64,000 nucleotides of DNA, taken from positions 1,426,001 to 1,490,000 of the forward strand of contig NZ_CP061294.1 in assembly GCF_018687515.1 (NCBI RefSeq), written 5' to 3'. This document shows, piece by piece, positions 31-23,183 of the stretch. This stretch comes from Polynucleobacter sp. MWH-Spelu-300-X4. GTDB lineage: Bacteria; Pseudomonadota; Gammaproteobacteria; Burkholderiales; Burkholderiaceae. Position numbers and translations under genes: made by a program. Numbering within the stretch: position 1 is the first letter of the stretch; each line of letters starts with the position of its first letter. Below the pieces are notes generated by a model. It made no database searches. It was not told the origin of the DNA and saw only the letters and a program-made list of their open reading frames with translations.

Positions 31-3000
31 TTAGGCAGCATCAACCCATTCATCTCCAAGCGCCTGGACTTGTTGCAACACTAACTCAACAGCTCCATCT
101 TGTTGATCTGGTGGGTATTTGTATTTTCGCAAGATACGTTTAACCATTAGACGCAAGTTGGCGCGGACGCTTTCACGCTCCGCCCAATCTACTTTGATAT
201 TTTGACGTAGGTTTTCAGTCAGCTCATGTGCGATCTTCTTGAGTATCTCGTCATTGAGTTCACGAACTGCTGACTCGTTATTTGCAAGCGCATCATAAAA
301 CTTAACTTCATCATCCGTAAGTCCTAGTTGCTCCCCCCGACTTGAAGCTTCTCGAAACTTCTTAGCCATCTCTATAAGTTCTTCCATCACCTGCGCTGTC
401 TCAATAGCGCGGTTTTGGTATCGTTGAATCACATTGGTCAGCAGGTCACTAAACTTTTTCTCCTGCACCACATTACTGCTGAATCGGCTTCTGATTTCAC
501 CTTGCAACAAACGCTCAAGCAGCTCAACAGCTAGGTTGCGTTCAGGGATGTTTTTAACCTGCGCCAAAAACTCATCGTCCAGCAGTCCAATGTTTGGCTT
601 GTCCAAGCCCACAGCATCAAAAATATCTACTACGCTATCCGACACCACAGCAGAGCTAATAATTTGACGAATCGCTAAGTCACGCTGCTCATCTGTCTTA
701 CGCTGTGCAGTTATGTCACGCTTTGTCAGCAAGACTTTGATGCCCTGCATAAACGCGACTTCTTCGCGAACAGATTTGGCTTCATCTAATGTGCAGCACA
801 AGGTGAATGCCTTGCTCAATGCAACTGCCGTATCGGCAAATCGTTTCTTGCCATCCTTTAAGCCAAGCACGTGGTTAGCTGCACCAGCCAACGTTTTGTG
901 ACCAGCCGCCAAAAAGTTGCTGTAGTCAAAGCCGTGCAGCATTCCGCGCAATATGTCCAACTTCTCGGCGAGTATGCTGTAGGCTTCGTGGGCATCAACT
1001 GTTGTCCTACCCCGTCCGCTGCTGTTCGTATATTCCTTCATCGCGGCTTTTAGCTCGTTGCCAATGCCGATGTAGTCCACGACCAAGCCACCTTGCTTAT
1101 CCTTGAACACGCGATTAACCCGTGCAATGGCTTGCATCAGGTTATGCCCTTTCATCGGCTTATCAACGTACAGTGTATGCACACAAGGCGCATCAAATCC
1201 TGTCAGCCACATATCGCGAACGATCACCAACTTCAACTCGTCGCCTGGGTCTTTAAACCGCTTCTCAAGGCGTTTTTTGGTTTTGCCATCGTAAATATGG
1301 GGGCGCAGTAAAGCCTTGTCACTTGCCGAACCAGTCATCACGATTTTTATTGCGCCTTTTTCGGGGTCTTCATCGTGCCAATCAGGGCGCAGCTTGACGA
1401 TTTCGTTGTAGAGGTGAACGCAAATATCGCGGCTCATTGCAACAACCATTGCCTTGCCAGCCATTGCCTTGTTGCGCTCTTCAAAGTGCGCAACCAAATC
1501 AGCAGCCACTTGCGCTACACGAGGTTCAGCACCAACAACCCTCTCCAATGCGGCCCACCGGCTTTTGAGTTTGCTTTGTGCGCTTTCCTCTTCATCCTCT
1601 GCAAGCTCATCCACTTCTGCATCAATAGTGGGCATCTGCTGCTCATTGAGCTTCAACTTGGCAAGCCGTGATTCGTAATAGATTGCAACAGTTGCGCCAT
1701 CTTCTTTGGCCTGTTGCATATCGTAAATATGGATGTAGTCACCAAACACTGCGCGAGTGTCACGGTCTTCACTACTTACGGGAGTGCCCGTGAAAGCGAC
1801 AAAGGTTGCGTTTGGCAAAGCATCACGCAAGTGCTGTGCATAGCCAGCTTGGTAACGTTCTTCACCCGCCTTGCCCTTTAGCTTGGCATCAAATCCGTAT
1901 TGAGTGCGGTGCGCTTCGTCCGCAATCACCACGATGTTGCTGCGGTCGGACAAGACAGGAAACGTGTCCTCGTCTTCGCCCAGCATAAATTTTTGAATAG
2001 TTGCAAACACAATGCCGCCCGATGGACGATTGGCAAGTTTTGCACGTAAGTCTTGACGAGTGCCAATTTGAACTGGTTGTTCACGCAGCAAGTCTTGGGA
2101 CAAGCTGAACACGCCAAACAACTGTCCATCCAAGTCGTTGCGGTCAGTGATGACTACAACTGTTGGGTTTTCCATCGCAGCAGATTGCATCACCCTTGCA
2201 GCAAAGCAAGTCATCGTGATGCTCTTGCCACTGCCCTGCGTATGCCAAACAACGCCGCCCTTATGTGAGCCATCGGGACGTGATGCTTGCACAACTTGTT
2301 CGATGGCTGCACGTACAGCGTGGAACTGGTGATAGCCAGCAATCTTTTTAACCAGCTTGCCATCATCCTCGAACAGAACGAAATAACGCAGGTAGTCAAG
2401 CAGGTACTCAGGGGCTAACAAGCCACGCACTAATGTCTCAAGCTCTTGAAACTGTCCAAGCGGGTCAATTGTTTTGCCATCAATCGTGCGCCAAGCCATA
2501 AAGCGTTCAGCATCAGCAGACAACGAGCCAAGCAGGGCTTCCGTACCGTCGGAAATTACCAATACCTCGTTGTACTGGAATACATCAGGTATTTGCTCTT
2601 TGTAGGTTTGAATTTGGTCAAACGCTTTCCAAATGTCAGCGTTCTCATCGGCGGGATTCTTCAACTCCAGCAATACCAACGGCAAACCGTTCACAAACAA
2701 AATAATGTCAGGGCGGCGTGTGTGCCGTGCGCCTTTAATCGTGAACTGATTGACTGCAGCCCAATCATTTTTGGCAGGCGTTTCCCAATCAATCAAGCGC
2801 ACGAAGTCTCCGCGAGTTTCCCCGTCTTTTTGGTACTGCACGGGGACACCGTTTACCAACAGCTTGTGAAAGTGCCTGTTAGCTGACAGCAACGATGGAA
2901 TGCCAAGGTCTTGCACTTGCCTAAACGCATCTTCACGTGCAGCAAGTGGAATGTTTGGGTTTAAGCGGTTAATTGCCTCACGCAAGCGGAATGGCAGCAG

Positions 3001-3126
3001 CGTGTTCTTGTAATCAGGACGCTCAGGAGTTGTCCCATCAACGGCAATCTCATAGCCATTGAGCAACGTGTAACCAACGTCACTCAGCCAGCCTAATGCC
3101 TCTTGTTCAAGTTGGTCTTCGGTCAT
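31..3126 (-). CDS. hsdR: Type I restriction enzyme, R (endonuclease/translocase) subunit
   Basis: This is the motor and nuclease subunit of a type I restriction-modification complex; it translocates and cuts DNA lacking the HsdM/HsdS methylation pattern. The 1031-residue length is normal. A PD-(D/E)xK nuclease site is visible at about residues 139-156 (D140, then E154-L-K156 in LLELKNP). The SF2 helicase follows: Walker A QGSGKS near 297-302, DEAH at about 403-406, motif III FTGTPV, and a motif VI-like QAIARVNR. It is the last gene of hsdM-hsdS-hsdR, starting 2 nt after the hsdS stop, so translation is probably coupled. No frameshift or missing catalytic motif was seen, so the system looks active. 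The only uncertainty is whether it belongs to the same island as the integrase at 15.3 kb. Confidence 0.96.
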
Positions 3127-3128
3127 AG

Positions 3129-4397
3129 TTAGGCTATTGCCTTTTCTAGTTCTACTTCTGCGTCAGCAATATGCAGCTGCCCCGAGATTAAACGTGGCAA
3201 CAAGGTGTCACGTAACGCTGTGAGTGTGCTTATATGTTTGCGATTTGAAATTATTAGGTTATGAGTTGGAGCAACGATCGCAGCGAATTTTTGGTTGATT
3301 TGGGAGGATGGAACTATCAATCGTATTGACTTTAAATAACTAACTGGTCGCGCAATTGATGGAACACCGACTTGAGATGTGTTTGCGAGCAACTGATGTT
3401 GACCCGCTGCAGACTTGAAGTAATAAACAATCCATTCAGGGCTTATAAGTGAGCTGTTGCAGCGAAGAAAAAATTGCCGTTGTGAAAGAACGTATTTGTT
3501 GTATTCGGAGTCAGCGTGAAGCAAACTAACTTGACCAATACTACCTGCGTGCGTGAATATCACATCACCAGCTTGAACACAGGATTTAGACAGTCGCTGT
3601 GCGTGTTCTAAAGTTATGAAATTAAAAGTATTATCTTCAACAAGCAGTTGTTTCAAATGCTGGCCACTGATTACAGGAATACCTGATTCAACGAAAGTCT
3701 CTACCTTAATGTTCGAACCGAACGGTCCCATACCAACTCGTTCAGAAATTTCCTCAACAGTACTAATTTTCCAACCCTTCGGCACTAACCCAAGCTCAGT
3801 CTCTTCAAACCCATCAGGAAAAAGTGCAGCAGTTGCAGCATCAATACCTTCGGGTAACTTGCCTTCTACCTTTGCACGAACAGGGTCAAAGTCCACGAAC
3901 CAAGACTTGAACAATGCTTGGGCAATGGCTTCTAGGGTTTGATTGGTTTCGCGCAAGAGTGCGATGCGGTCGTCAAGACTACCCAACATTCCTGAAATTG
4001 ATTTTTGTACTGAAACTGGAGGCTTCGCTACACGCATAGGATGTAAATGGTTTCGGTTTAGTGTTGGCACTCCGCTTCCAGCATTCATCGAGCTAAAGTC
4101 GATTGACTTCAAAAGGTAATAACAATACCTAGGGTCATTTCCTTTGAAATCTTTAACCCAAAGCGTTGTATTCAACGGCCAAAAGTCTTGGGCTACGAAT
4201 TGACCGCCGCCAATACTCCCGCTTCTTCCAATCACAACTCCGGGAGCTTTAACTGGTGCTTCATTGTGAAAGCCAACAACTCCAGTTGAAGCAACAATTG
4301 GGTGCTTGCCCCCTTTTCTTTCTTGAACAGGCAAGTCCATACCTCTTTGCAAGGTCAATACATCACCAAGCGTTGAATCCTCCCATTCAGAAGTCAT
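3129..4397 (-). CDS. hsdS: Type I restriction-modification specificity subunit
   Basis: This subunit recognises the bipartite DNA target of the type I complex. The 422 residues show the usual two-half layout: a first target-recognition domain starting with [15 protein letters not shown], a central conserved spacer around residues 140-185 ([18 protein letters not shown], then [11 protein letters not shown]), a second target-recognition domain starting near [11 protein letters not shown], and a C-terminal conserved helix ([17 protein letters not shown]). The gene overlaps the end of hsdM by 11 bp and is followed 2 nt later by hsdR, which gives a tight single operon. Both recognition domains look intact. 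The DNA target cannot be predicted by eye. No inverted repeats or extra partial hsdS copies that would suggest phase-variable shuffling are visible nearby. Confidence 0.95.
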
Positions 4398-5934
4398 AAC
4401 CTAGACCTCCAAGCTTTTGCTTAATCACTGCATCAAGCTCAGCACCTTTAGCCATCTGCTCACCTAGCTTTTCTGTCAGCTTTTGCATCTTGTCGGCAAA
4501 TGCTTCATCGTCGTCTTCCACTTCTTCTGCACCTACATAGCGCCCCGGAGTGAGCACGTGTCCGTGAGATGCAATTTCAGCTAGAGGGACGCTGCGACAA
4601 AAGCCAGCAATATCTTGGTAATCGCCACCTTCACCACGCCAAGCAGCAACAGTTTTTTCGATGTTGCTAATCACCTCATCCGTAAACTCTGCTTGCACAC
4701 GGCTAATCATCGACCCCTGCTTACGCGCATCAATGAACAGAACTTCACCTTTGCGTTTGGTTTTTTGCTTAACCAAGAACCACAAGCAAGCTGGAATTTG
4801 AGTGTTGAAAAACAACTGACTAGGTAATGCAATCATTACCTCAACAACGTCCGCATCAACCATTGCCGCACGAATTGCGCCTTCGTTATTTTGGCTGGAA
4901 CTCATACTGCCGTTTGCAAGCACGATGCCTGCACGTCCAGCGGGCTTGAGGTGATACAACATATGCTGCAACCACGCATAGTTTGCATTGCCCTGCGGTG
5001 GGTCGCCATACACCCAACGCGGGTCGCCCATTAAGCTCCCGTGCCACCAATCGCTGATGTTGAACGGTGGATTAGCGAGGATGTAATCAGCACGAAGGTC
5101 AGTGTGTTGGTTTTTCGTGAATGTGTCAGCTGGCTCACGACCAAGATTGAAGTCGATGCCACGAATAGCCAAGTTCATCGCAGCAAGTCGCCACGTTGTT
5201 GGGTTGGCTTCTTGCCCGTAAATGGCTACGTCACCAATCTTGCCACCGTGCGCCTCAATAAACTTTTCACTCTGCACAAACATACCGCCCGAACCACAGC
5301 AAGGGTCATATACCTTGCCCTCGTGCGGAGACAGAACAGCAACCAATGCTTTAACAATTGATGCTGGCGTGTAGAACTGTCCGCCACGCTTGCCCTCTGC
5401 ATTGGCAAACATACCGAGGAAATACTCATATACCTGCCCAAGAACATCACGTGCAGCACTAGCGTTGTCGCCAAAGCCAATAGTTGAAATCAAGTCAACC
5501 AGCTCACCCATCTTGCCGTCTGGTAGCTGTGCTCTTGCATATCGCTTGTCAAGAATGCCTTTTAGCTTAGGGTTCTCTGTCTCGATAACAGTCAACGCTT
5601 CATCAATACGTTTGCCAATGTCGGGGGCTTTGGCAGCTGCACGGATAGCTTCCCAACGTGCAGATTCAGGTACCCAAAAAACGTTCGCAGCTGTGTAGTA
5701 GTCACGCTCTTCAAGCTCAGCAACAACATCAGCATCACTTGCATCAGCGAGGTAGTATTCATCCTTTGGATCACGCAAGCGCACATTCAACTCCTGCTGC
5801 TTTGCCGCGAAGGTATCAGAGATATATTTGACAAAAATAAGACCAAGGACAAGATGCTTGTACTCGGCAGCATCCATATTTGCCCGCAATTTATCGGCGG
5901 TCGCCCAAAGAGTTTTCTTAATATCGTCAAGCAT
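4387..5934 (-). CDS. hsdM: Type I restriction-modification N6-adenine methyltransferase subunit
   Basis: This is the methyltransferase that, with HsdS, modifies adenines in the target and protects the host. The 515-residue protein has the helical HsdM N-terminal domain (about residues 1-150), the SAM-binding motif I DPCCGSGGM at about 210-218, and the catalytic NPPF motif at about 288-291. Both are intact. It is the first gene of the hsdMSR operon. The ATG at 5932-5934 lacks a strong ribosome-binding site, but the HsdM N-terminus (MLDDIKKTLWATADKLR) supports it. A GATAAT hexamer about 35 bp upstream on the minus strand could be a -10 element, although no convincing -35 was found. The C-terminal 11 bp overlap hsdS. 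Confidence 0.96.
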   Translation of the reverse strand: MLDDIKKTLWATADKLRANMDAAEYKHLVLGLIFVKYISDTFAAKQQELNVRLRDPKDEYYLADASDADVVAELEERDYYTAANVFWVPESARWEAIRAAAKAPDIGKRIDEALTVIETENPKLKGILDKRYARAQLPDGKMGELVDLISTIGFGDNASAARDVLGQVYEYFLGMFANAEGKRGGQFYTPASIVKALVAVLSPHEGKVYDPCCGSGGMFVQSEKFIEAHGGKIGDVAIYGQEANPTTWRLAAMNLAIRGIDFNLGREPADTFTKNQHTDLRADYILANPPFNISDWWHGSLMGDPRWVYGDPPQGNANYAWLQHMLYHLKPAGRAGIVLANGSMSSSQNNEGAIRAAMVDADVVEVMIALPSQLFFNTQIPACLWFLVKQKTKRKGEVLFIDARKQGSMISRVQAEFTDEVISNIEKTVAAWRGEGGDYQDIAGFCRSVPLAEIASHGHVLTPGRYVGAEEVEDDDEAFADKMQKLTEKLGEQMAKGAELDAVIKQKLGGLGYDF

Positions 5935-6621: not shown

Positions 6622-6640
6622 AAATCGTTTCAAACGATTT
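6622..6640. repeat. CGTTT-N-AAACG palindrome, copy 2 (perfect)
   Basis: The sequence AAATCGTTT-C-AAACGATTT is a perfect 9+1+9 inverted repeat that begins immediately after the stop codon of the 107-aa gene. It is the most symmetrical member of the family described at 6133, 10158 and 20294. Confidence 0.8.
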
Positions 6641-9237: not shown

Positions 9238-9283
9238 AATGTTAAAATTCACGCTAGTTTGATAATTTCTATTTGTTAACATT
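9238..9283. promoter_or_regulatory. Candidate operator/promoter of the gene at 9285
   Basis: Two 8-bp inverted arms, AATGTTAA (9238-9245) and TTAACATT (9276-9283), are separated by 30 bp and flank a GATAAT hexamer at 9261-9266. The right arm ends one base before the ATG at 9285, leaving no Shine-Dalgarno. This fits an autoregulatory site or a near-leaderless promoter, but only by inspection. Confidence 0.35.
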
Positions 9284-9284
9284 T

Positions 9285-10169
9285 ATGGCAAAAAAACCTG
9301 TACCATTCGATGCGCATTGGGACTTAGAAGGTGTTGATGTGGTCGCAAACTGGCGCTATCCGCTCATCCTTCCTTACATCACACAGAGCCCGAGCTTTAT
9401 TGCGGTCACCAAAAAACATAGAGGGCTCAAAGTTCCAAGGGCTGAACTACCGAAAGACGAAAAACTGGTTTTTGAGGTTGCCAAGAAATTTGGGCTTTTA
9501 AATGTTGAATATGGCTTCGATGATTTTTTCAACATTAAGTGGTGGAATACCACTGGAAAACATCTTTATGGCACAAAACACGCCATACCCGACATTGAGC
9601 AAAAACTAGTCAAGGCAGGTCAGACCCAGACAGTTAAGGTTACAAGCGAAGAATCACCAACTATCGTTCTGCAAATTCCGACCAACTTAACCGCGACAGA
9701 AGCGATTAGCCGCATACGGCAAATTTTCTATATCAACAGAGAGTTATTCAATGTAGAGTTTGGAACGCCACTGCCAGCAAAATATGACTCTGAATACAAA
9801 CTAGAACCCAGCAAGCTGCGCAAAGATACTGTAATTAAAGGTGCCAGTGCTATCGCGATGTACAGAGAGGGAATGCCACTATGGAAAATTGGTAATCAAC
9901 TGAAAATAAGCCCCGATCATCTAATCAAAGATTCAGATTTAGATATGGATCAAGATAAGCTAGCCGAACACAAGAGAGTTCTGAGTATCATGGCATTGCG
10001 ACTTGTAAAAACCGCCCTACTAATTGCAGAAAATGCTGCCCGAGGACGATTTCCTCTAGATAAACCCTTTCCGCAAGCCAAGCTTAAGAGCTACAAGAGA
10101 CCAGCTGGGAGACCTATTGGATCAAGGCGACCAAAACGAATAAGCGTGACCGAGTTCAAATCGTTTTAA
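9285..10169 (+). CDS. Hypothetical island protein, 294 aa
   Basis: Unknown family. ATG 9285 (MAKKPVPFDAHWDLEG) is preferred over a TTG twelve bases upstream. The first two thirds are a mixed alpha/beta protein with no obvious catalytic motif. Near residues 190-215 there is a helix-turn-helix-like stretch (AMYREGMPLWKIGNQL, then KISPDHLI). The last 35 residues are strongly basic (SYKRPAGRPIGSRRPKR), with an AT-hook-like RPAGRP, which suggests DNA binding. It is transcribed divergently from the 9079-6150 cluster, so a regulator or partition-type role is possible. The TAA stop lies inside a CGTTT-AAACG palindrome, and the gene converges on the short recombinase at 10178. Confidence 0.7.
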   Translation: MAKKPVPFDAHWDLEGVDVVANWRYPLILPYITQSPSFIAVTKKHRGLKVPRAELPKDEKLVFEVAKKFGLLNVEYGFDDFFNIKWWNTTGKHLYGTKHAIPDIEQKLVKAGQTQTVKVTSEESPTIVLQIPTNLTATEAISRIRQIFYINRELFNVEFGTPLPAKYDSEYKLEPSKLRKDTVIKGASAIAMYREGMPLWKIGNQLKISPDHLIKDSDLDMDQDKLAEHKRVLSIMALRLVKTALLIAENAARGRFPLDKPFPQAKLKSYKRPAGRPIGSRRPKRISVTEFKSF

Positions 10170-10176
10170 ACGAATT
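10158..10176. repeat. CGTTT-N-AAACG palindrome, copy 3
   Basis: The sequence AAATCGTTT-T-AAACGAATT contains the TAA stop of the gene at 9285 and ends 1 bp before the stop codon of the convergent recombinase gene. It has the same arms as copy 1. Confidence 0.75.
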
Positions 10177-10177
10177 A

Positions 10178-10750
10178 CTAGATCAGCTCTACTGCTTTGC
10201 GCTTTTGATCATCGTTGCAGTCTATATAGTGCTGCACGCTAGATAACTGTCTGTGCCCTGATAGCCCCATGATCACCCTGACCCCAACTCCCTTAGCAGC
10301 TAAGTTAGTAATAAAGCTGCGTCTACCTGAGTGGCTACTTGCCCCTGGGATCGCTGCCCTTTGATATAGATAGTGAAAAAACTGGGTAGCGGTATTGGCA
10401 TTAAAGCCATCACTACTTTTCTTCTGGGAATAAAACAGTTTTTCTTGGGGGTCTTTTGGGGTGTAGAACTTGATATAGGCGGCCAGCTCCTTTTTGAGTT
10501 TTTCACTAATAAAGACCGTACGGGCGTAATTGCCCTTGGTTTGCTCTGGGCGCAGCATTATCTCGTTTTTAATTGCGCCTTCTGCATCAACAACGTCTAC
10601 AAAGCGCAAAGACGCCATTTCTGCAACACGTAGCCCTGCGTAATGCGTAATAAGCAGCATCGCCCTATTTCTAGCTGAATGCTTGCGTGTAGCTATGTGA
10701 TCTAAAACTCTACGTAATTCTTGTGGTGTTAATGTTTTTGCTTGTTTCAT
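10178..10750 (-). CDS. Short tyrosine recombinase (catalytic domain only)
   Basis: This 190-residue protein has the complete catalytic set of a tyrosine recombinase: R41 (AGLRVAEMASLR), K72 (EQTKGNYAR), H140 and R143 (HSGRRS), H166 (LSGHRQ) and nucleophile Y175 (SVQHYID). It lacks the N-terminal SAM-like core-binding domain of XerC/XerD and phage integrases, so its size and layout are like the FimB/FimE invertases and other minimal recombinases. ATG 10748-10750 has a GGGAGA ribosome-binding site. It may act on short local sites; the CGTTT-AAACG palindrome next to its 3' end is a candidate. It is separate from the full-length integrase at 15270 and could be a relic of another element, but nothing looks broken. 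Confidence 0.88.
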   Translation of the reverse strand: MKQAKTLTPQELRRVLDHIATRKHSARNRAMLLITHYAGLRVAEMASLRFVDVVDAEGAIKNEIMLRPEQTKGNYARTVFISEKLKKELAAYIKFYTPKDPQEKLFYSQKKSSDGFNANTATQFFHYLYQRAAIPGASSHSGRRSFITNLAAKGVGVRVIMGLSGHRQLSSVQHYIDCNDDQKRKAVELI

Positions 10751-15269: not shown

Positions 15270-16676
15270 TCAAGATTTCTTTTTCTCAGCAACTTCTTCC
15301 TGCTGCTTCTTAAGTTTTTTCGACTGATATACCTCGGGTACATCAATCTCATGAAACAGGGCTTGCCTAGCTTTTGGTGCACGAACGTTTTCAGCAATAG
15401 CCTCGCCAGTAGCCCGATCGTAGTGCTTGGCAATAATCCCAGGTGAATTACCCAATTGCAAAGCAATGTCTCTGAGCGGTACCCCATCAAAATTTAGTAC
15501 AGCTGTCGTGTGAGCACTGCGGAAGCTATAGAACACCCTTTTTTTACCTGAGTTAGGGTCATACAATAAATTATGCTCATCCAAAAAGCGATCAAACATA
15601 TGATTGCTCGTACCCAGCTTGCCACCACTTCTAGTTCTAAATACATAACCCGGGTCGTTATTCTCGGTAAGCTTCTTAAGGGTTACCTCAGAATCAGGGT
15701 AATTACGAGCCACAATCTCTTTTAATACTTTGAATGTTTCATCAAAGCCATTAACGTTACGATCCTTGGTCTTGCCATAAACAGAAAGTATCACTGTTGG
15801 CTGCCATTCAATCGACTCAATTAAATTACCTTCCTCATCATATTCTTCGATGAGCTCATCCTTCTTAATATCTTCAATCAAAAAGCCATCTTCATCAAGC
15901 TCTTGTTTCGGTGCATCAACAACCCTCACCTTGTACTTGATGTTTTTCCACTGCAAATCAAGCAGCTCTTTACCAGGGCGAGCACCCGTATCGATCAAGA
16001 TACGCACATAGTCATACAACAGCTCTCTTTGCTCTCGCTTAGCTTCTGATCTTCCCCGCTTAATCCAATCAGGGAAGTTAGCCAAGATGGCGTTGATTTC
16101 TTTCACACTGAAAGTGGCGTAGTTTTCACCCTTGCGCCCTTTGGTTTCTAACTCGGGCTTATTCACCCTGGTCATAAACCCACGCAAGATAGCTTCTTCA
16201 AAGATGTAATTCAGCGTAACGTTATGTTTACGCACCGTACTATAAGCGGGCTCTTTGCCCATTAACTTAGCTCGGTCTTCTTCGTACTGCTTTAAAGCTG
16301 CGTAATCAATCTTGTCGATATTCTTATTACCCAGACAAGGAATCAAGAAGTCATCAATGATGCGTTTGTAGACATTGTAGGAAACGGGAGCTTCACCCTT
16401 TTTAGCCTTGTCATCCATGCGCTGCTTGGTTAAGCGAGCGATATCTTTAAATTTCTTGGTAACTACAGGAAGGTTGGCTTCTTTTTTAAGTTCGGCGATA
16501 CGCTTGAGATCTTTTGCCCGTTCAATGGCTTTTTCACGATCACGCAATTTTGTGGAAGCTATTAACCACTTACCATCCACCTTGTAACGGCACTGCCAAA
16601 CAGTACTCGTTGGGCGCTTATAGAGAATAAGCTCACGCGGGTAGATTTCATAGGTGCTGTCGAGCTTTTCAGGCAT
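15270..16676 (-). CDS. int: Tyrosine-family site-specific integrase of the island
   Basis: The 468-residue protein is a full-length phage-type integrase: an N-terminal arm-binding region (about 1-75), a SAM-like core-binding domain (about 80-185), and a C-terminal catalytic domain with R at about 233 (TGARPGKELLDLQW), Y-x2-R at about 383-386 (YSFRSAH, Y in place of the usual H), LGNSPGIIAKHY with nucleophile Y419, and a Lys-rich tail. An acidic insert of about 40 residues (PKQELDEDGFLIEDIKKDEL onward) lies between the first Arg and the beta-hairpin. The first codon is either GTG 16679 or the next codon, ATG 16676. It is the best candidate for the enzyme that inserted the island into tRNA-Ile(CAU); a TGTAGAAGCA repeat found upstream of it recurs at the island end. 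Confidence 0.9.
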   Translation of the reverse strand: MPEKLDSTYEIYPRELILYKRPTSTVWQCRYKVDGKWLIASTKLRDREKAIERAKDLKRIAELKKEANLPVVTKKFKDIARLTKQRMDDKAKKGEAPVSYNVYKRIIDDFLIPCLGNKNIDKIDYAALKQYEEDRAKLMGKEPAYSTVRKHNVTLNYIFEEAILRGFMTRVNKPELETKGRKGENYATFSVKEINAILANFPDWIKRGRSEAKREQRELLYDYVRILIDTGARPGKELLDLQWKNIKYKVRVVDAPKQELDEDGFLIEDIKKDELIEEYDEEGNLIESIEWQPTVILSVYGKTKDRNVNGFDETFKVLKEIVARNYPDSEVTLKKLTENNDPGYVFRTRSGGKLGTSNHMFDRFLDEHNLLYDPNSGKKRVFYSFRSAHTTAVLNFDGVPLRDIALQLGNSPGIIAKHYDRATGEAIAENVRAPKARQALFHEIDVPEVYQSKKLKKQQEEVAEKKKS

Positions 16677-16718
16677 CACAACACTTTAAATTTTTATAAC
16701 GTTTACGTCAACGGATTT

Positions 16719-17262: not shown

Positions 17263-19188
17263 TCAAGAAATTTTTGACTTAATAAAATCTACGACGTTTT
17301 TGTACTTTTCAGAAATATTTTTCAACTCACAATCATTAACGAGTTTTAATTTATATGAATCAATGAAAGGGTTGATAAGATCCCTTTCAATGCCCTGTTT
17401 GTGCAATATGCTCTTAAGAAAATTTAATTTACCGACCTCAGGAAAGGTTATATCCGCTAGATTCACCTTTATGCCAAGCTCAATGGCATTTTCAGAAATT
17501 TTTTGAAGAAAATATTCATCAGAATAAAAATCTTCAATAGTTTCAGGGATCTGATATTCAGGATTACCAAAAATATCGGCATAAGTTATCCACTCGCCAT
17601 GCCCATGAAACTTATTATGTTCATCTCTGTATTGCAGGGCAGTCTTATCTGAGTCACTAAGGATCAGGAGCTCTCTATTTGCAACCTGGAACATAGGAGT
17701 CAAATTCTTTATCAACTTAACGCCCTGTGAAAAACAAGATCCAACACGACTAAATTTGTCTCGAATGGCTTTACTTTGGCCGCTTATGTATAGATCAAAT
17801 ATTCTTTTATCCTGCCAACCCTCAAATAGAATATTTTTTTCGGAAATTACTTCAAAAATAGATGCTCCTAGTGCGCTATATAAAACTTCATCCTCATAAA
17901 GCCTAGACTCTTCACTCCCTTGATACACCTTTGTAATTTCCGATGCTTTCTTCACAACAAAATTTGCATCGTAATCTTTTTTATTAATCATATAAGGAGA
18001 ATGCGTCGCTATAAAAACAGCATTTGTTTGAGCCATCCTAAGAAGCTCATCTCTTAGATTTTTAATACCACTTGGATGAAGGCTAATTTCTGGCTCATCA
18101 AATAGGAGAACCATGTCTTTCATTTCACCATTTTTTACTTTTGCAGAAATCAAAAGCAATAGTGAAACAAATCGCTTAAATCCATCGCTCCTATCCTGAA
18201 AACTGAAGTCGGTTACATCATCAACAACCGATATAGTCATCAAAGATCCATTCGGAGTAATTTCCAATCTCACATCTTTGTAATCACGCCATATATTCTT
18301 AAGATATTGAGTGGCCGCCGATGATACTTTTTTTAACACAGCTTTAAATTGATGTTGACCAAGAATTTTTTCTCCAAGAAGATCTTTCTCTAAATCAGAA
18401 ATTCCTGCCAACATGAAAATACTCTTTAATGGCGCACAACTGTCAGGGTTTTTAGAAAATGCATCAATATCGATTTCACTTGGCAATATGTTAGTTGGGT
18501 CGAAGTTCCACAACAATGCTTCTGGCAACAAATCTTTAGCCAAAGCAATGATTGCCCCACCAACAATTATGTTTAACTTCTCTGGAGTTAAAGGCTTAAT
18601 CCAGGCATCGGATCTATTTTCTATCGAATTTAATTCAACAAGGTCAACGGTACTTGCCTGAACTTCAACGCCATCGTCTATTTTTTTGAGCTTGGACTCC
18701 CCATTAATTTCACTTTTTTCTATATACCCCCACTCCCCTATTATTTTTGCTGTTTTAGGGAGCTGAAAATACTGCAGAGTCTTCTCCTCGGAAATGATAT
18801 TTGCCTTATATTGCAGCCTACCTTTTGCATTAAAAAAGTCTTGCAAAGACAATTCTTGCTTATCTCCCAGCGAAACTATCAACTTCCCCGAAGCCGGCTC
18901 AATAACATTTAATTTTAATTTTTTATATGCTTCATTAATTTCATCTTCATTCATTTGAAATATAAATTTGACGAATGATTCATCTATTATTTGGTCTGGA
19001 TCTGCGCTCATTCGACAATCTTTTCTAGATATTTTCGAATTGCTTGCCAGCAAATTGATGGCCTTCAATATATTTGATTTTCCAGACTCATTCATGCCAA
19101 CAAATACACTTGTCACGCCGTCCCTCACTGAGAGAGACAATGTATCAATACTTCTATAGTTTTTTATGTCAATATTAGTAAGTTTCAT
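17263..19188 (-). CDS. OLD-family ATPase with TOPRIM-like nuclease domain
   Basis: The 641-residue protein opens with an ABC/SMC-like ATPase (KLTNIDIKNYRSIDTLSL, Walker A GMNESGKSN at about 31-39), has a signature-like RSDGFKR near 333-339, Walker B VLLFDEPEISLHP at about 360-372 and the switch THSPYM near 395-400. A TOPRIM-like domain follows: E456 in LFEGWQDKR and D512/D514 in LILSDSDK. This is the layout of OLD-family proteins such as P2 Old and GajA, which cleave DNA in phage defence. Gabija would have a UvrD-like GajB next to it; instead there is a ParB-fold gene. The start ATG 19188 has GTGGAAA upstream. Activity of the TOPRIM centre cannot be judged by eye. Confidence 0.85.
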   Translation of the reverse strand: MKLTNIDIKNYRSIDTLSLSVRDGVTSVFVGMNESGKSNILKAINLLASNSKISRKDCRMSADPDQIIDESFVKFIFQMNEDEINEAYKKLKLNVIEPASGKLIVSLGDKQELSLQDFFNAKGRLQYKANIISEEKTLQYFQLPKTAKIIGEWGYIEKSEINGESKLKKIDDGVEVQASTVDLVELNSIENRSDAWIKPLTPEKLNIIVGGAIIALAKDLLPEALLWNFDPTNILPSEIDIDAFSKNPDSCAPLKSIFMLAGISDLEKDLLGEKILGQHQFKAVLKKVSSAATQYLKNIWRDYKDVRLEITPNGSLMTISVVDDVTDFSFQDRSDGFKRFVSLLLLISAKVKNGEMKDMVLLFDEPEISLHPSGIKNLRDELLRMAQTNAVFIATHSPYMINKKDYDANFVVKKASEITKVYQGSEESRLYEDEVLYSALGASIFEVISEKNILFEGWQDKRIFDLYISGQSKAIRDKFSRVGSCFSQGVKLIKNLTPMFQVANRELLILSDSDKTALQYRDEHNKFHGHGEWITYADIFGNPEYQIPETIEDFYSDEYFLQKISENAIELGIKVNLADITFPEVGKLNFLKSILHKQGIERDLINPFIDSYKLKLVNDCELKNISEKYKNVVDFIKSKIS

Positions 19189-19276
19189 TTTTATATTTCC
19201 ACTCTTTGTGACTTAAGTTTATTCTAATTTCTATAAAAAATATGCTCGACATCAAATCCGTACCAACTTCAAATAC

Positions 19277-19306
19277 ACAGCCCATTAGATCAAGCAAATG
19301 GGCTGT
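19277..19306 (-). terminator. Hairpin between the protease and OLD ATPase genes
   Basis: A perfect 10-bp stem, ACAGCCCATT paired with AATGGGCTGT, with a 10-nt loop. No long T run follows on either strand, so termination would be weak; it may instead stabilise the 3' end of the protease mRNA. Confidence 0.45.
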
Positions 19307-19323
19307 CAACCCCTAAATTAAGT

Positions 19324-20064
19324 TCAATTTTTCAAAAATGGAAATGAAGTAGCAGCCCTAATATATAAACTCTCTGTAGACTCATGCATTTTGTAAATTA
19401 CGCCAGCAAATTTATAGTATTGAATATTTTCTGGGGTTCTACAGATTAAAAAAGCGGGGCCTCCACTAATCCCGCCTAAACAGTTTGGTTCTAGCTCATA
19501 AGAGCTTGATATCCAGTGCTCTCTTTCAAACTCACAGCAAATGTAATCTGAATAGATATCAGACACGCGGCACGCCCCACTGCTATAAGACCCAAAATTA
19601 ATTTCCGCATAAGAATCAAGTCTACGTAAATCACCAGGGAATCCACTGTATGCAACAAAATCATTATTTTTGACAATTGCTAAATCACCGTCATGGATGC
19701 GGAAAAATGCTTCACCAATACCAATACTCCCCTCTGAAACCATGGAGGCCTGTTCTTCGGTCAATTCAAAAGCAACCACATCCAAGGCCTCATCTTCATA
19801 TATCAACTGCTTTTCAGGATCAAAATGGACATTTGATATTGAGAAAAATATTTCCCTCTCCTCTCTCAATCTCTTCCTATAGTGCTTAAATACATGATGA
19901 CACGTCAAAGCTAAAAATTTATTTTGATATTGCAATAAAGTAGACGTGCCATTATTAATCGATACTCCTGCATCTTTTCTGGGGGTCAACCCAAAATAAA
20001 TTGGCTTACAAAATCTCAATGGAAATCTTTCCATTTGCTGAAGAAGGTCTGTCTGCATATTCAT
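19324..20064 (-). CDS. Trypsin-like serine protease domain protein
   Basis: A 246-residue protein with a plausible chymotrypsin-fold catalytic triad: His in LALTCHHVFKHY (about residue 56 or 57), Asp in EDEALDVVAFE (about 95) and Ser in GGISGGPAF (about 200). No signal peptide or transmembrane helix is visible, so it is expected to act in the cytosol, unlike DegP-type proteases, and it has no PDZ domain. ATG 20064 is preferred; a TTG 15 bases upstream is possible. Stand-alone trypsin-like proteins of this kind occur in defence islands, where a protease can activate or destroy an effector. It is 135 bp upstream of the OLD ATPase operon, in the same direction, with a hairpin between. Confidence 0.8.
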   Translation of the reverse strand: MNMQTDLLQQMERFPLRFCKPIYFGLTPRKDAGVSINNGTSTLLQYQNKFLALTCHHVFKHYRKRLREEREIFFSISNVHFDPEKQLIYEDEALDVVAFELTEEQASMVSEGSIGIGEAFFRIHDGDLAIVKNNDFVAYSGFPGDLRRLDSYAEINFGSYSSGACRVSDIYSDYICCEFEREHWISSSYELEPNCLGGISGGPAFLICRTPENIQYYKFAGVIYKMHESTESLYIRAATSFPFLKN

Positions 20065-20082
20065 TTTTTTATTATCCAATTA

Positions 20083-20114
20083 AAAAACAAAACCCCCACC
20101 ATTGCTGATGAGGG
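20083..20114 (-). terminator. Intrinsic terminator of the intron-containing tRNA-Ile gene
   Basis: On the minus strand CCCTCATC pairs with GGTGGGGG (20107-20114 and 20093-20100) including two G-U pairs, loop 6 nt, followed by TTTTGTTTTTT. It lies 10 bp after the tRNA CCA end. Confidence 0.8.
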
Positions 20115-20293
20115 CTTGCTTTCTGGTGGGCCCACCAGGACTTGAACCTGGGACCAAAGGATTCCGGTTTGTGTTGCTTTCACAACTCCCTGGACTATGC
20201 CTTCATCATATCCATTGCTGGACTTAGATGGGTGCCGTCTAGTCTCTACACGTTCAAAGTAATTTCTTACTGAGCTTCGCTCGGTGTTGCCAT

Positions 20294-20311
20294 ATTCGTT
20301 TGAAACGATTT
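20294..20311. repeat. CGTTT-N-AAACG palindrome, copy 4 (inside the intron)
   Basis: Read on the minus strand it is AAATCGTTT-C-AAACGAAT, the same as island copies 1-3 apart from the central base and last position. It lies in the enlarged P6 region of the group I intron. Confidence 0.75.
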
Positions 20312-20337
20312 GTGCATTTAGTAAAAAATACATTAAC

Positions 20338-20349
20338 TCGTTTAAACGA
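20338..20349. repeat. TCGTTTAAACGA palindrome in the intron P6 extension
   Basis: A perfect 12-bp palindrome related to the CGTTT-N-AAACG family but without the central base, 26 bp from copy 4. The two together make up most of the P6 enlargement. Confidence 0.65.
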
Positions 20350-20453
20350 CTTTAGGTTTCGCCGAATTTGACACCATCCCTTATGCAGTTTCCACGCATA
20401 AGGCACAACTTTCGCTATGAGTCCTCTGCTCTAACCAACTGAGCTATAGGCCC

Positions 20454-20612
20454 TAAAACTTCACATTACTTGCTCCACTACTTCTGCACTCGCTAGGCCA
20501 TTAATTAGGTCTAAAAAGTGTAGAAGCACTGTAGAAGCAATTTTTACTACTTTTACTACATGTAACTACTTGATTTAATTAAGTAATTTTAATAAATCAA
20601 AAAACTTAATTA
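20454..20612. other. Candidate island end: AT-rich spacer with tandem repeats
   Basis: This 159-bp AT-rich stretch lies between the truncated and the complete tRNA-Ile genes. It contains two tandem TGTAGAAGCA copies (20519-20528, 20530-20539) and two TTTTACTAC copies just beyond them, a pattern usual for integrase arm sites. The same 10-mer is upstream of int at 16719. No gene is visible. Confidence 0.5.
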
Positions 20613-20653
20613 GATTATGAGTCCTCTGCTCTAACCAACTGAGCTAAGGGCCC
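20613..20653 (-). pseudogene. Truncated tRNA-Ile(CAU) 5' half next to rpoD (probable att site)
   Basis: The first 41 nt of a tRNA-Ile(CAU) gene (GGGCCCTTAGCTCAG to ACTCATAATC) begin 7 bp after the rpoD stop codon. Nucleotides 8-37 are identical to the complete copy at 20453; positions 6-7 differ (CT instead of TA). After the anticodon it continues AATC, as in the intron-less mature sequence, then changes to AT-rich DNA. The 3' half is absent, so it cannot make a tRNA. The arrangement is that of an integration site at the anticodon arm, with the missing 3' half expected at the other end of the island, outside the window. Confidence 0.85.
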
Positions 20654-20660
20654 TTATGGA

Positions 20661-23183
20661 TTAATCTTCCTCTAAGAAGCTCTTTAGTTTGTCGCTTCTG
20701 CTTGGATGACGCATTTTACGCAAAGCCTTAGCTTCAATTTGACGAATACGCTCACGCGTTACATCGAATTGTTTACCCACTTCTTCTAATGTGTGGTCGG
20801 TGCTCATTTCAATACCGAAACGCATTCTAAGAACCTTGGCTTCACGCGGTGTCAATGAATCAAGAATATCTTTCACCACATCACGCATTGAATCATGCAA
20901 CGCAGCTTCAGCAGGCGCTAATGTGTTGGTATCTTCAATGAAGTCACCTAAATTAGAATCTGCGTCATCACCAATCGGTGTTTCCATAGAGATAGGTTCT
21001 TTAGCGATCTTCATGATCTTACGAATCTTATCTTCTGGAATTTCCATCTTCGCCGCAAGCGTTGCTGCATCTGGCTCATTACCAGTCTCTTGAAGAATCT
21101 GACGGCTAATACGGTTCATCTTATTGATTGTTTCAATCATATGAACAGGGATACGGATTGTTCTTGCTTGGTCAGCAATCGAGCGTGTGATCGCCTGACG
21201 AATCCACCATGTTGCATAAGTTGAGAACTTATAACCACGACGATATTCAAATTTATCAACCGCCTTCATCAAGCCGATATTACCTTCTTGAATTAAGTCC
21301 AAGAACTGTAAACCACGATTGGTGTACTTCTTAGCAATCGAGATAACCAAACGCAAGTTAGCAACGGTCATCTCACGCTTCGCAGCGCGTGCACGTTTCT
21401 CACCTTCATTCATCTGCTTGTTCACTTCCTTCAACTCAGGAAGTGGCAATACAACATTTGTTTGAATATCAATTAACTTTTGTTGAACTTCTTGAACAGC
21501 AGGCACATTACGCTCTAGAACAGCGCTATATGGCTTGCTCTCTTTAAGAAGCATCGCAGTCCACTTCAAATTCAAAGCATTTTTTGGCAAAGCAGCTAGA
21601 ACTTCATTACGAGGCACGCCCACCTTGTCCACCAAAATACGCACCAAACTGCGTTCTAAATTCCAAACTTGCTCTACCTGCTTACGCATTGTGTCGCAAA
21701 GTTTTTCAACAGACTTCGCTGTCAAACGGAATCCCATCAACTCATGACGAATCGCTTCTTGAGCCTTTTTATAAGCTGGTGAGTTGTAACCCTCTTTCTC
21801 ATGGGCCTTACGCATTTTGTCAAACTGCGCACGAATTACCGCAAATTTCACCAAAGAAAGTTGCTTTAATTCTTCTAATTGCTTAGCTGAGGCCGTATTA
21901 CCACCGCCACCACCGCCGCCTTCATCTTCCTCGTCACCGTCTTCTTCATCAAGATTTTCCTCTTCCTCAACAGCGGTCATCGGAATATCTTCAGCATTAG
22001 GATCTACCAAACCATCCACAAACTCATCAATTTCCATCGTGCCTTCTTCAATCTTCTGCACGTTATCTAGGATTTCAATAATTGTTACTGGGCAAGCAGA
22101 CAAAGCCATCACCATCTCTTTGAGGCCAGCCTCAATTTTCTTGGCAATCACAATCTCGCCTTCGCGAGTCAATAGATCAACAGTGCCCATCTCGCGCATA
22201 TACATACGCACAGGATCGGTTGTACGACCAAACTCAGAGTCAACAGTTGATAGCGCTGCTTCAGCCTCTTCTTCAGCCTCTTCCTCTGTAGTTGCTGAAG
22301 GTGCGTTCTCATTTAAGAGCAATGTCTCAGCATCAGGAGCTTGCTCATAAACAGTAATACCAATATCACTTAATAAACCAATCAAGGTTTCTAATGAATC
22401 TGAGTCAGAAATTTCATCCGACATCACGTCATTAATTTCGCCATGCGTCAAATAGCCGCGTGACTTACCCATCTTAATTAAGTGCTTTAAGCGTGCACGA
22501 CGTAACTCTTGTTGCTCTTCGCTACCTAATTTTTGAGCATTAAATTCTTGTAACAAAGCTTTTTCTTTAGCTTTACGATCACGCGCCTTTTGGCGATCGG
22601 TTCTGTTATCTACATTAGGATCAACAGGCTCAACTGGTTTTGGTTTACGGCCACGTGTCTTTTTAGGCTGCTCCACTAACTCTTCAGCAACAGCAGCTTG
22701 CTCGACAACTTCTTTCTCTTTACCTTTTTTAACTTCAACCTTTTTAGCATCCGCCTTTTTTAATTCAGGCTTTTTAGCTTCAGCCACTTTCCCTTTTACC
22801 GGTGCTTTTGCTTTAACTTCCACCTTCTTCGCCACGGGCTTAACTACTGGCTTAGCTACCGGTTTTGTGGTTTTTGTGACAACTGGCTTAGCTGCTGGCT
22901 TTTTTGCCACTGGCTTAGCTACTGGTTTTGCAGTTTTTTTAGCAACCGGTTTATTTACCTTAGCCACTGGCTTCTTAACTGCCGGCTTAGCTACAGGCTT
23001 TTTAACGGCAGGTTTAGTAGCTTTAGCCACTGGTTTTGCAGGTTTTTTAGCTACAGGCTTAACAACCTTAGCCGCAGGCTTCTTGGCAACCACCTTACCG
23101 GCAGGCTTCTTAGCTGCAGGTTTAGCGCTTGTTTTTTTAAGGTCAGCCTTAGTAATCGTTTTTTTGGCTTTAGATGCTGGCAT
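20661..23183 (-). CDS. rpoD: RNA polymerase primary sigma factor (sigma-70) with long basic N-terminal repeat tail
   Basis: Primary sigma factor that directs RNA polymerase to housekeeping promoters. Visible parts of the 840-residue protein: a Lys/Ala/Pro-rich tail of about 170 residues (repeats of AKKPVAKP type), a charged linker (TRGRKPKP), region 1.1, region 1.2 ([11 protein letters not shown]), an acidic non-conserved region with a Gly run ([12 protein letters not shown]), region 2 ([33 protein letters not shown]), region 3 and region 4 ([20 protein letters not shown]). The core regions are complete. The tail makes it longer than E. coli RpoD (613 residues); Lys-rich tails are known in Burkholderiales sigma-70. 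It ends the rpsU-yqeY-dnaG-rpoD cluster and has its own -10 candidate at 23266-23271. Confidence 0.97.

Follow-up and report, generated by a model that had tools for sequence, protein, structure and literature searches.

A genomic island of about 22.2 kb in Polynucleobacter sp. MWH-Spelu-300-X4 has split the host tRNA-Ile2(CAU) gene beside rpoD and carries close to its left end a complete replacement, here called the rescue gene, which is itself interrupted by a group I intron. The explanation that we favor, with a probability of roughly three in four, is a tRNA-dependent island on whose rescue gene the intron would be mostly a passenger. The first-pass annotation of this DNA had proposed that the intron makes the rescue gene immune to a second integration; in its strict form this proposal is contradicted by three other genomes of the genus, in which an island right end is directly joined to the intron. 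The scar, the replacement, and their recurrence in Polynucleobacter are solid.

A broken host tRNA gene and its replacement beside rpoD

The window, that is, the whole 64-kb stretch that was analyzed, corresponds to positions 1426001-1490000 of a 1.786-Mb contig. The 5' half of a tRNA-Ile2(CAU) gene and a complete intron-bearing tRNA-Ile2 gene both lie 3' of rpoD (Table 1); the first-pass annotation had recognized this pair, and its limits, 20124-20653, are exact. Run without its intron option, ARAGORN detects zero tRNAs across the 64-kb window, and with the option it reports an anticodon CAT and a 253-nt intron from tRNA position 38. Two further CAU tRNA genes are present in the genome, which we take from their sequences to encode the initiator and elongator tRNA-Met (L025 and L019, respectively). 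Since these are tRNA-Met genes and the native gene resembles the rescue gene, the latter presumably encodes an AUA-reading tRNA-Ile2, an assignment made by elimination and likeness. No second tRNA-Ile2 was found in the genome among the 30 of 35 tRNA matches that were read, the other five being 81-99 nt long.

Table 1. Features of the rpoD-linked locus and of the island within the window (window coordinates).
Feature	Position	Strand	Basis or remark
rpoD (putative)	20661-23183	(-)	Named from sequence, as also in the first-pass annotation; chromosomal neighbor of the target tRNA
Broken host tRNA-Ile2(CAU), 5' half, 41 nt	20653-20613	(-)	Ends ACTCATAATC
attL core, last 9 nt of the broken 5' half	20621-20613	(-)	CTCATAATC; also at far island end
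Island left end, core to rescue tRNA, 159 bp	20454-20612	(-)	Sequence
Rescue tRNA-Ile2(CAU), complete, island-borne, intron-bearing	20124-20453	(-)	ARAGORN; about 200 bp from broken half
Rescue tRNA 5' exon, 37 nt	20417-20453	(-)	ARAGORN; last base is U36 of the anticodon
Group I intron, 253 nt	20164-20416	(-)	ARAGORN and Rfam RF00028
Rescue tRNA 3' exon	20124-20163	(-)	ARAGORN
Terminator-like hairpin 3' of rescue tRNA	20090-20117	(-)	Consensus match only
Weakly LmuA-like protein	19324-20079	(-)	Cargo between rescue tRNA and integrase
AAA/SMC-like ATPase	17263-19188	(-)	Cargo between rescue tRNA and integrase
Candidate island integrase, 469 aa	15270-16679	(-)	PHROG phrog_1, E 2.2e-32; zero Pfam matches
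Short second recombinase, XerC/D-like, 190 aa	10178-10750		In island
Type I restriction-modification genes hsdR, hsdS, hsdM	31-5934	(-)	Island cargo

The missing 3' half of the host gene, which the first-pass annotation had expected at the other island end, starts at genome position 1424412 on the same strand, 22.2 kb away and just beyond the window. It is preceded by a sequence that differs from that at the rpoD-side half. Seven nucleotides of the host 5' half (GGGCCCT) pair with AGGGCCC of the distant 3' half, but not fully with TGGGCCC at the 3' end of the rescue gene. When rejoined, the two halves (77 nt) are identical to the intronless native gene of the island-free relatives G410 and G427, each of which has a single intact intronless copy and zero stray 3' halves. 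The native gene of G499 is also identical to the rejoined halves, but another 3' half lies about 5 kb away in that genome. The core CTCATAATC is common to both island ends, a rebuilt tRNA is found at neither junction, and the classical tRNA-restoring feature, an attP fragment that regenerates the tRNA at one end, is absent from both. These sequence comparisons support the view that the broken copy is an integration scar.

Candidate integrase and cargo of the island

The protein encoded at 15270-16679 is probably the integrase of the island. Its family is present in 90 of the 186 genomes of the genus at E 1e-20 and has 48 matches there that score 200 bits or more. A rescue tRNA lies within 12 kb of 27 of these matches (in 2 cases an intronless one) and at a greater distance from 5, and the remaining 16 are on contigs that have none. 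The sequence GCTTCTACA occurs in the island left end and again close to the far end, and its copies are possible candidates for integrase arm sites. No phage structural genes were found among the island open reading frames scanned, which were a part of the total, and the exact 20-base intron pattern has zero matches in viral contigs.

Between the rescue tRNA and the integrase, the ATPase and the LmuA-like protein (17263-20079) are perhaps a defense pair. The short recombinase is convergent with the gene of a 298-aa protein without a family match (together 9273-10750); in G031 (L318), relatives of both proteins are close to an island right end, and further relatives of the recombinase occur in L150, L170, and L302. 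Just past the far 3' half (L277, 507-2092), an AbiEii toxin family protein (PF08843) is encoded together with a DUF6088 protein, likely as a toxin-antitoxin pair. The palindrome ATCGTTTNAAACG has five matches in the window, two of them overlapping, against 0.02 expected; all are inside the island (6135, 6624-6638, 10160, and 20297), one is within the intron, and a similar sequence is present near the far island end (L277).

The introns of the rescue genes

The intron of the rescue gene matches Rfam RF00028 with 54.6 bits (E 4.2e-11), above the gathering score of 50. Introns of this type, kind 1, interrupt the anticodon loop after U36. The pre-tRNA-Ile gene of Azoarcus likewise has a CAU anticodon and is split at the same point. 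The 78 readable kind 1 copies were reduced by likeness to 13 for alignment, in which the fold is kept, compensatory changes are seen at 20 of the 57 predicted pairs, and U8, with which the 5' exon ends, pairs invariantly with G21. One aligned copy, L126 (G512), has a kind 1 beginning and a deviating 3' part that resembles kind 2, and is perhaps a hybrid of the two. No homing endonuclease was recognized in the intron; the sole open reading frame of at least 80 aa that touches it (20061-20333, 90 aa) has no Pfam match.

A second intron, kind 2, sits between U33 and C34 of the anticodon loop and was observed in the rescue tRNA-Ile2 of L072, L091, L095, L106, and L164. It is group I-like, with scores of 25.5-35.6 bits in five loci, under the gathering score.

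The position of the kind 1 intron bears on the suggestion, made in the first-pass annotation, that the integration target is split exactly at the anticodon. The intron does lie after U36, but because it begins with A, the sequence CTCATA, six of the seven loop bases, survives in the intron-bearing gene, and the entire left arm is intact as well. Searches of open-licence literature, among them one on Polynucleobacter islands, listed no earlier case of an island-borne tRNA that is interrupted by a group I intron.

Recurrence in Polynucleobacter

The 5'-half pattern of the tRNA was matched in 162 of the 186 genomes of the genus, at 286 sites: 99 intact intronless genes, 87 genes with a kind 1 intron, 13 with kind 2, and 87 truncated halves. 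Intron-bearing copies are present in 73 genomes. Within 300 bp, the truncated halves are followed by a kind 1 gene in 55 cases, a kind 2 gene in 6, and an intronless gene in 8; in 2 cases a second truncated half follows, 5 halves are at a contig end, and 11 have no replacement within 300 bp. The readable replacements within this distance are therefore intron-bearing in 61 of 69 cases and intronless in 8 of 69. These counts are based on one genome per species and are uncorrected for shared descent, and some loci of draft genomes are split at contig ends. G472 was left out, as it has a truncated half whose upstream sequence is not a left end, while G449 was counted as a truncation. Intronless 3' halves behind island ends are found in 79 of the 186 genomes.

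Islands with intronless rescue genes also persist: in 7 scars the commonest left end is succeeded by such a gene, and for 2 of them a strong integrase match is located no more than 12 kb away. Another kind of island accounts for some of the 11 halves without a nearby replacement. It carries a 5' half and restores the gene, the intact gene being 5-6 kb away (G408, G508, G461, and G514). The rescue tRNA-Ile2 of G449 (L157) is intronless and has a different anticodon stem, perhaps another way of not being an attachment site. In G429 and G431 (L101 and L135), an intron-bearing tRNA-Ile2 is located straight after rpoD with no truncated half beside it; here the native gene was apparently displaced by the copy from the island.

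Island ends joined to the intron

If the intron acted as a shield, junctions between it and island ends would not be expected. Searching with a single pattern, 87 kind 1 intron starts were detected in the 186 genomes, 7 of them without a tRNA 5' half. In G439 (P. sinensis), G497 (AP-Kaivos-20-H2), and G535 (a metagenome-assembled genome), the 60 bp before the intron are a known right end, with 97, 97, and 100% identity, respectively, to one of 30 known right ends; the control maximum was 50% in 1500 random windows. The flanks of the three are independent, and in each the island right end is directly joined to CTCATA, the intron, and the 3' half, and therefore an island entered an intron-bearing copy. 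Strict immunity conferred by the intron is thus contradicted, and the simplest reading of these junctions is that integrases enter intron-bearing genes, which would be explicable because CTCATA and the left arm remain.

Three further genomes (G440, G441, and G501) share one decayed relic, which matches a right end only with a small indel; its ungapped identity of 42% is inside the control range (99th percentile 45%), and it is uncertain whether it represents a right end in an intron-bearing copy. The sequence before the intron in G407 is unrelated.

The partner expected of such an integration is a truncated 5' half preceded by island-type sequence. G439 has one on another contig, between two left ends; none was seen for G497 and G535. 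Beyond the junction, G439 is 99.9% identical over 748 bp to the flank after the intron-bearing gene in G577 and 98.5% identical over 1162 bp to the flank after an intronless 3' half in G440. The post-junction sequence of G497 is native-like, sharing 90% identity over 1194 bp with the native flank in G409, and that of G535 has matches of only about 40 bp among the sequences compared.

Mechanism and alternative explanations

In the mechanism that we propose, the site recombined by a tyrosine integrase would be a short core, CTCATAA in the genus and CTCATAATC here, within the anticodon-loop sequence of the host tRNA-Ile2(CAU) gene. The host gene would be split on integration, because the core is too short for rebuilding it, leaving the 5' half at one island end and the 3' half at the other. 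The cell would survive on the complete tRNA-Ile2 gene that the island supplies, located some 200 bp in from the left island end, and this gene would then be essential to its host. The rescue gene usually has a group I intron, presumably removed by self-splicing, and this intron would be no reliable barrier against the entry of another island. Three observations count against a pure passenger. It might be expected in native genes too, yet only 2 of 73 readable rpoD-linked genes have an intron as compared with 61 of 69 rescue genes (counts uncorrected for descent); two different introns are involved; and insertions at att junctions exceed those in intron-bearing tRNAs. The simplest answer to the bias is that the island-borne gene descended from an intron-bearing donor, which we offer because, among 27 loci with a group I intron in the order outside the genus, ARAGORN identified 6 as CAU tRNAs, in calls unchecked by hand.

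The same observations can be read in favor of a different account, which we consider unlikely: that the intron was selected for weakening the rescue gene as an attachment site, with less re-entry and less recombination beside attL. More broadly, and just as doubtfully, rescue tRNAs may have been selected as poor attachment sites, with group I introns recruited at least twice to weaken attB and removed at the RNA level. The two different introns that split one loop, and their presence in 61 of the 69 readable rescue genes, are in keeping with this account. Secondary insertions at att junctions, counted for the commonest left-end type only, number 23 (26 rows minus the unrelated L328 and the tRNA 5' halves L330 and L344), more than in intron-bearing tRNAs. 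If attL, attR, and the tRNA are assumed to be equal targets, the deficit in intron-bearing genes has a P value of 0.011 when the 3 clean cases are counted, 0.028 when the relic is added as one lineage, and 0.10 with all 6 rows. Counted by lineage, 77 of 161 intronless native or restored genes are broken as compared with 4 of 104 intron-bearing ones, but this is no clean control, because of the longer exposure of native genes and because the former intron state can no longer be read from a broken half. One intronless rescue gene has itself been entered (G516), and a search for a right end joined to a kind 2 intron yielded none, its two rows being unrelated. Against selection for a weakened site, kind 1 copies have been entered in at least three genomes, and the rate for intronless rescue genes (1 of 10) does not differ significantly from that for intron-bearing ones, taken as 3 of 103 (p 0.31) or 4 of 104 (p 0.37), with Fisher p values ranging from 0.17 to 0.37. 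Alternative solutions also exist elsewhere, namely the divergent stem of G449 and the restoration by a 5' half in G408, G508, G461, and G514. The intron may lower the rate of entry without giving immunity; if it was selected for this, a ribozyme would be protecting its gene at the DNA level, incompletely in the case of kind 1 and perhaps more tightly in that of kind 2.

It is more improbable still that 3' halves left behind at attR acquired the intron through homing or reverse splicing, in which case the junctions would not be integrations and immunity could remain absolute. Reverse splicing of group I introns is thought possible at four to six matching bases (PMC3984707), and the post-junction sequence is native-like in G497 and in G439 is common to intronless sites too. 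However, no endonuclease was recognized in the intron, an intron-bearing target was available because native genes with the intron exist (G429 and G431), and G439 holds the expected partner half, although on another contig and with no counterpart seen in G497 or G535. Intronless 3' halves behind island ends are, moreover, frequent. A tandem duplication and decay of the host tRNA without any island, suggested by two similar copies 200 bp apart, is refuted by the complementary 3' half 22.2 kb away, which rejoins with the 5' half to give the native gene.

Comparison with known systems

Our working model, a tRNA-dependent integration with an intron-bearing rescue gene, follows the descriptions of actinobacterial and rhizobial systems in PMC10865867 and PMC11476347. 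In the tRNA-dependent lysogeny of mycobacteriophages and other actinobacteriophages (Guerrero-Bustamante and Hatfull 2024, PMC10865867), a tyrosine integrase acts on a tRNA gene through a core of about 10 bp, the gene is not rebuilt, and the element carries the cognate tRNA; according to a table in that paper, tRNA-Ile2-CAT is the target of Gordonia phages whose cores measure 9 and 10 bp. The Polynucleobacter island similarly combines a short common core without tRNA rebuilding and a cognate CAU tRNA (20124-20453), but it belongs to a genomic island family whose rescue gene lies beside the attachment site and is mostly interrupted by a group I intron, unlike the phages described there. In Sinorhizobium meliloti, also a proteobacterium, a host tRNA is inactivated by phage-related integration and replaced by the copy of the element (PMC11476347), although mostly fMet and Met genes are concerned and the word "intron" appears 0 times in the main text. 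Classical tRNA islands, as presented for Islander (PMC4383910), include the anticodon loop among the listed attachment sub-sites but restore their target with a fragment, which the Polynucleobacter island does not.

With respect to the intron, the pre-tRNA-Ile of Azoarcus as described in PMC3984707 is alike in having a group I intron in a tRNA-Ile gene, whereas here the intron is in an island-borne replacement gene. A similar arrangement is that of the Caldiarchaeum tRNA-Thr (Sugahara et al. 2012, PMC3293823), where a mobile element is associated with a full gene that contains an intron and has a tRNA 5' fragment upstream, and for which it was already suggested, following Randau and Soell, that the intron keeps further elements out. 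That report describes a single locus with an archaeal intron at 24/25; in Polynucleobacter the introns are bacterial, belong to group I, interrupt the anticodon loop, and are present in 73 genomes, and there is evidence against strict exclusion. Applied to these islands, the shield idea published for archaea fails in its strict form. Integration dependent on a tRNA, earlier described from actinobacteriophages and rhizobial phage sequences, appears to be widespread in a freshwater Polynucleobacter island family and to be coupled there to group I introns. The published idea of exclusion by a tRNA intron becomes countable, as intronless and intron-bearing rescue genes occur in one genus and the latter have been entered.
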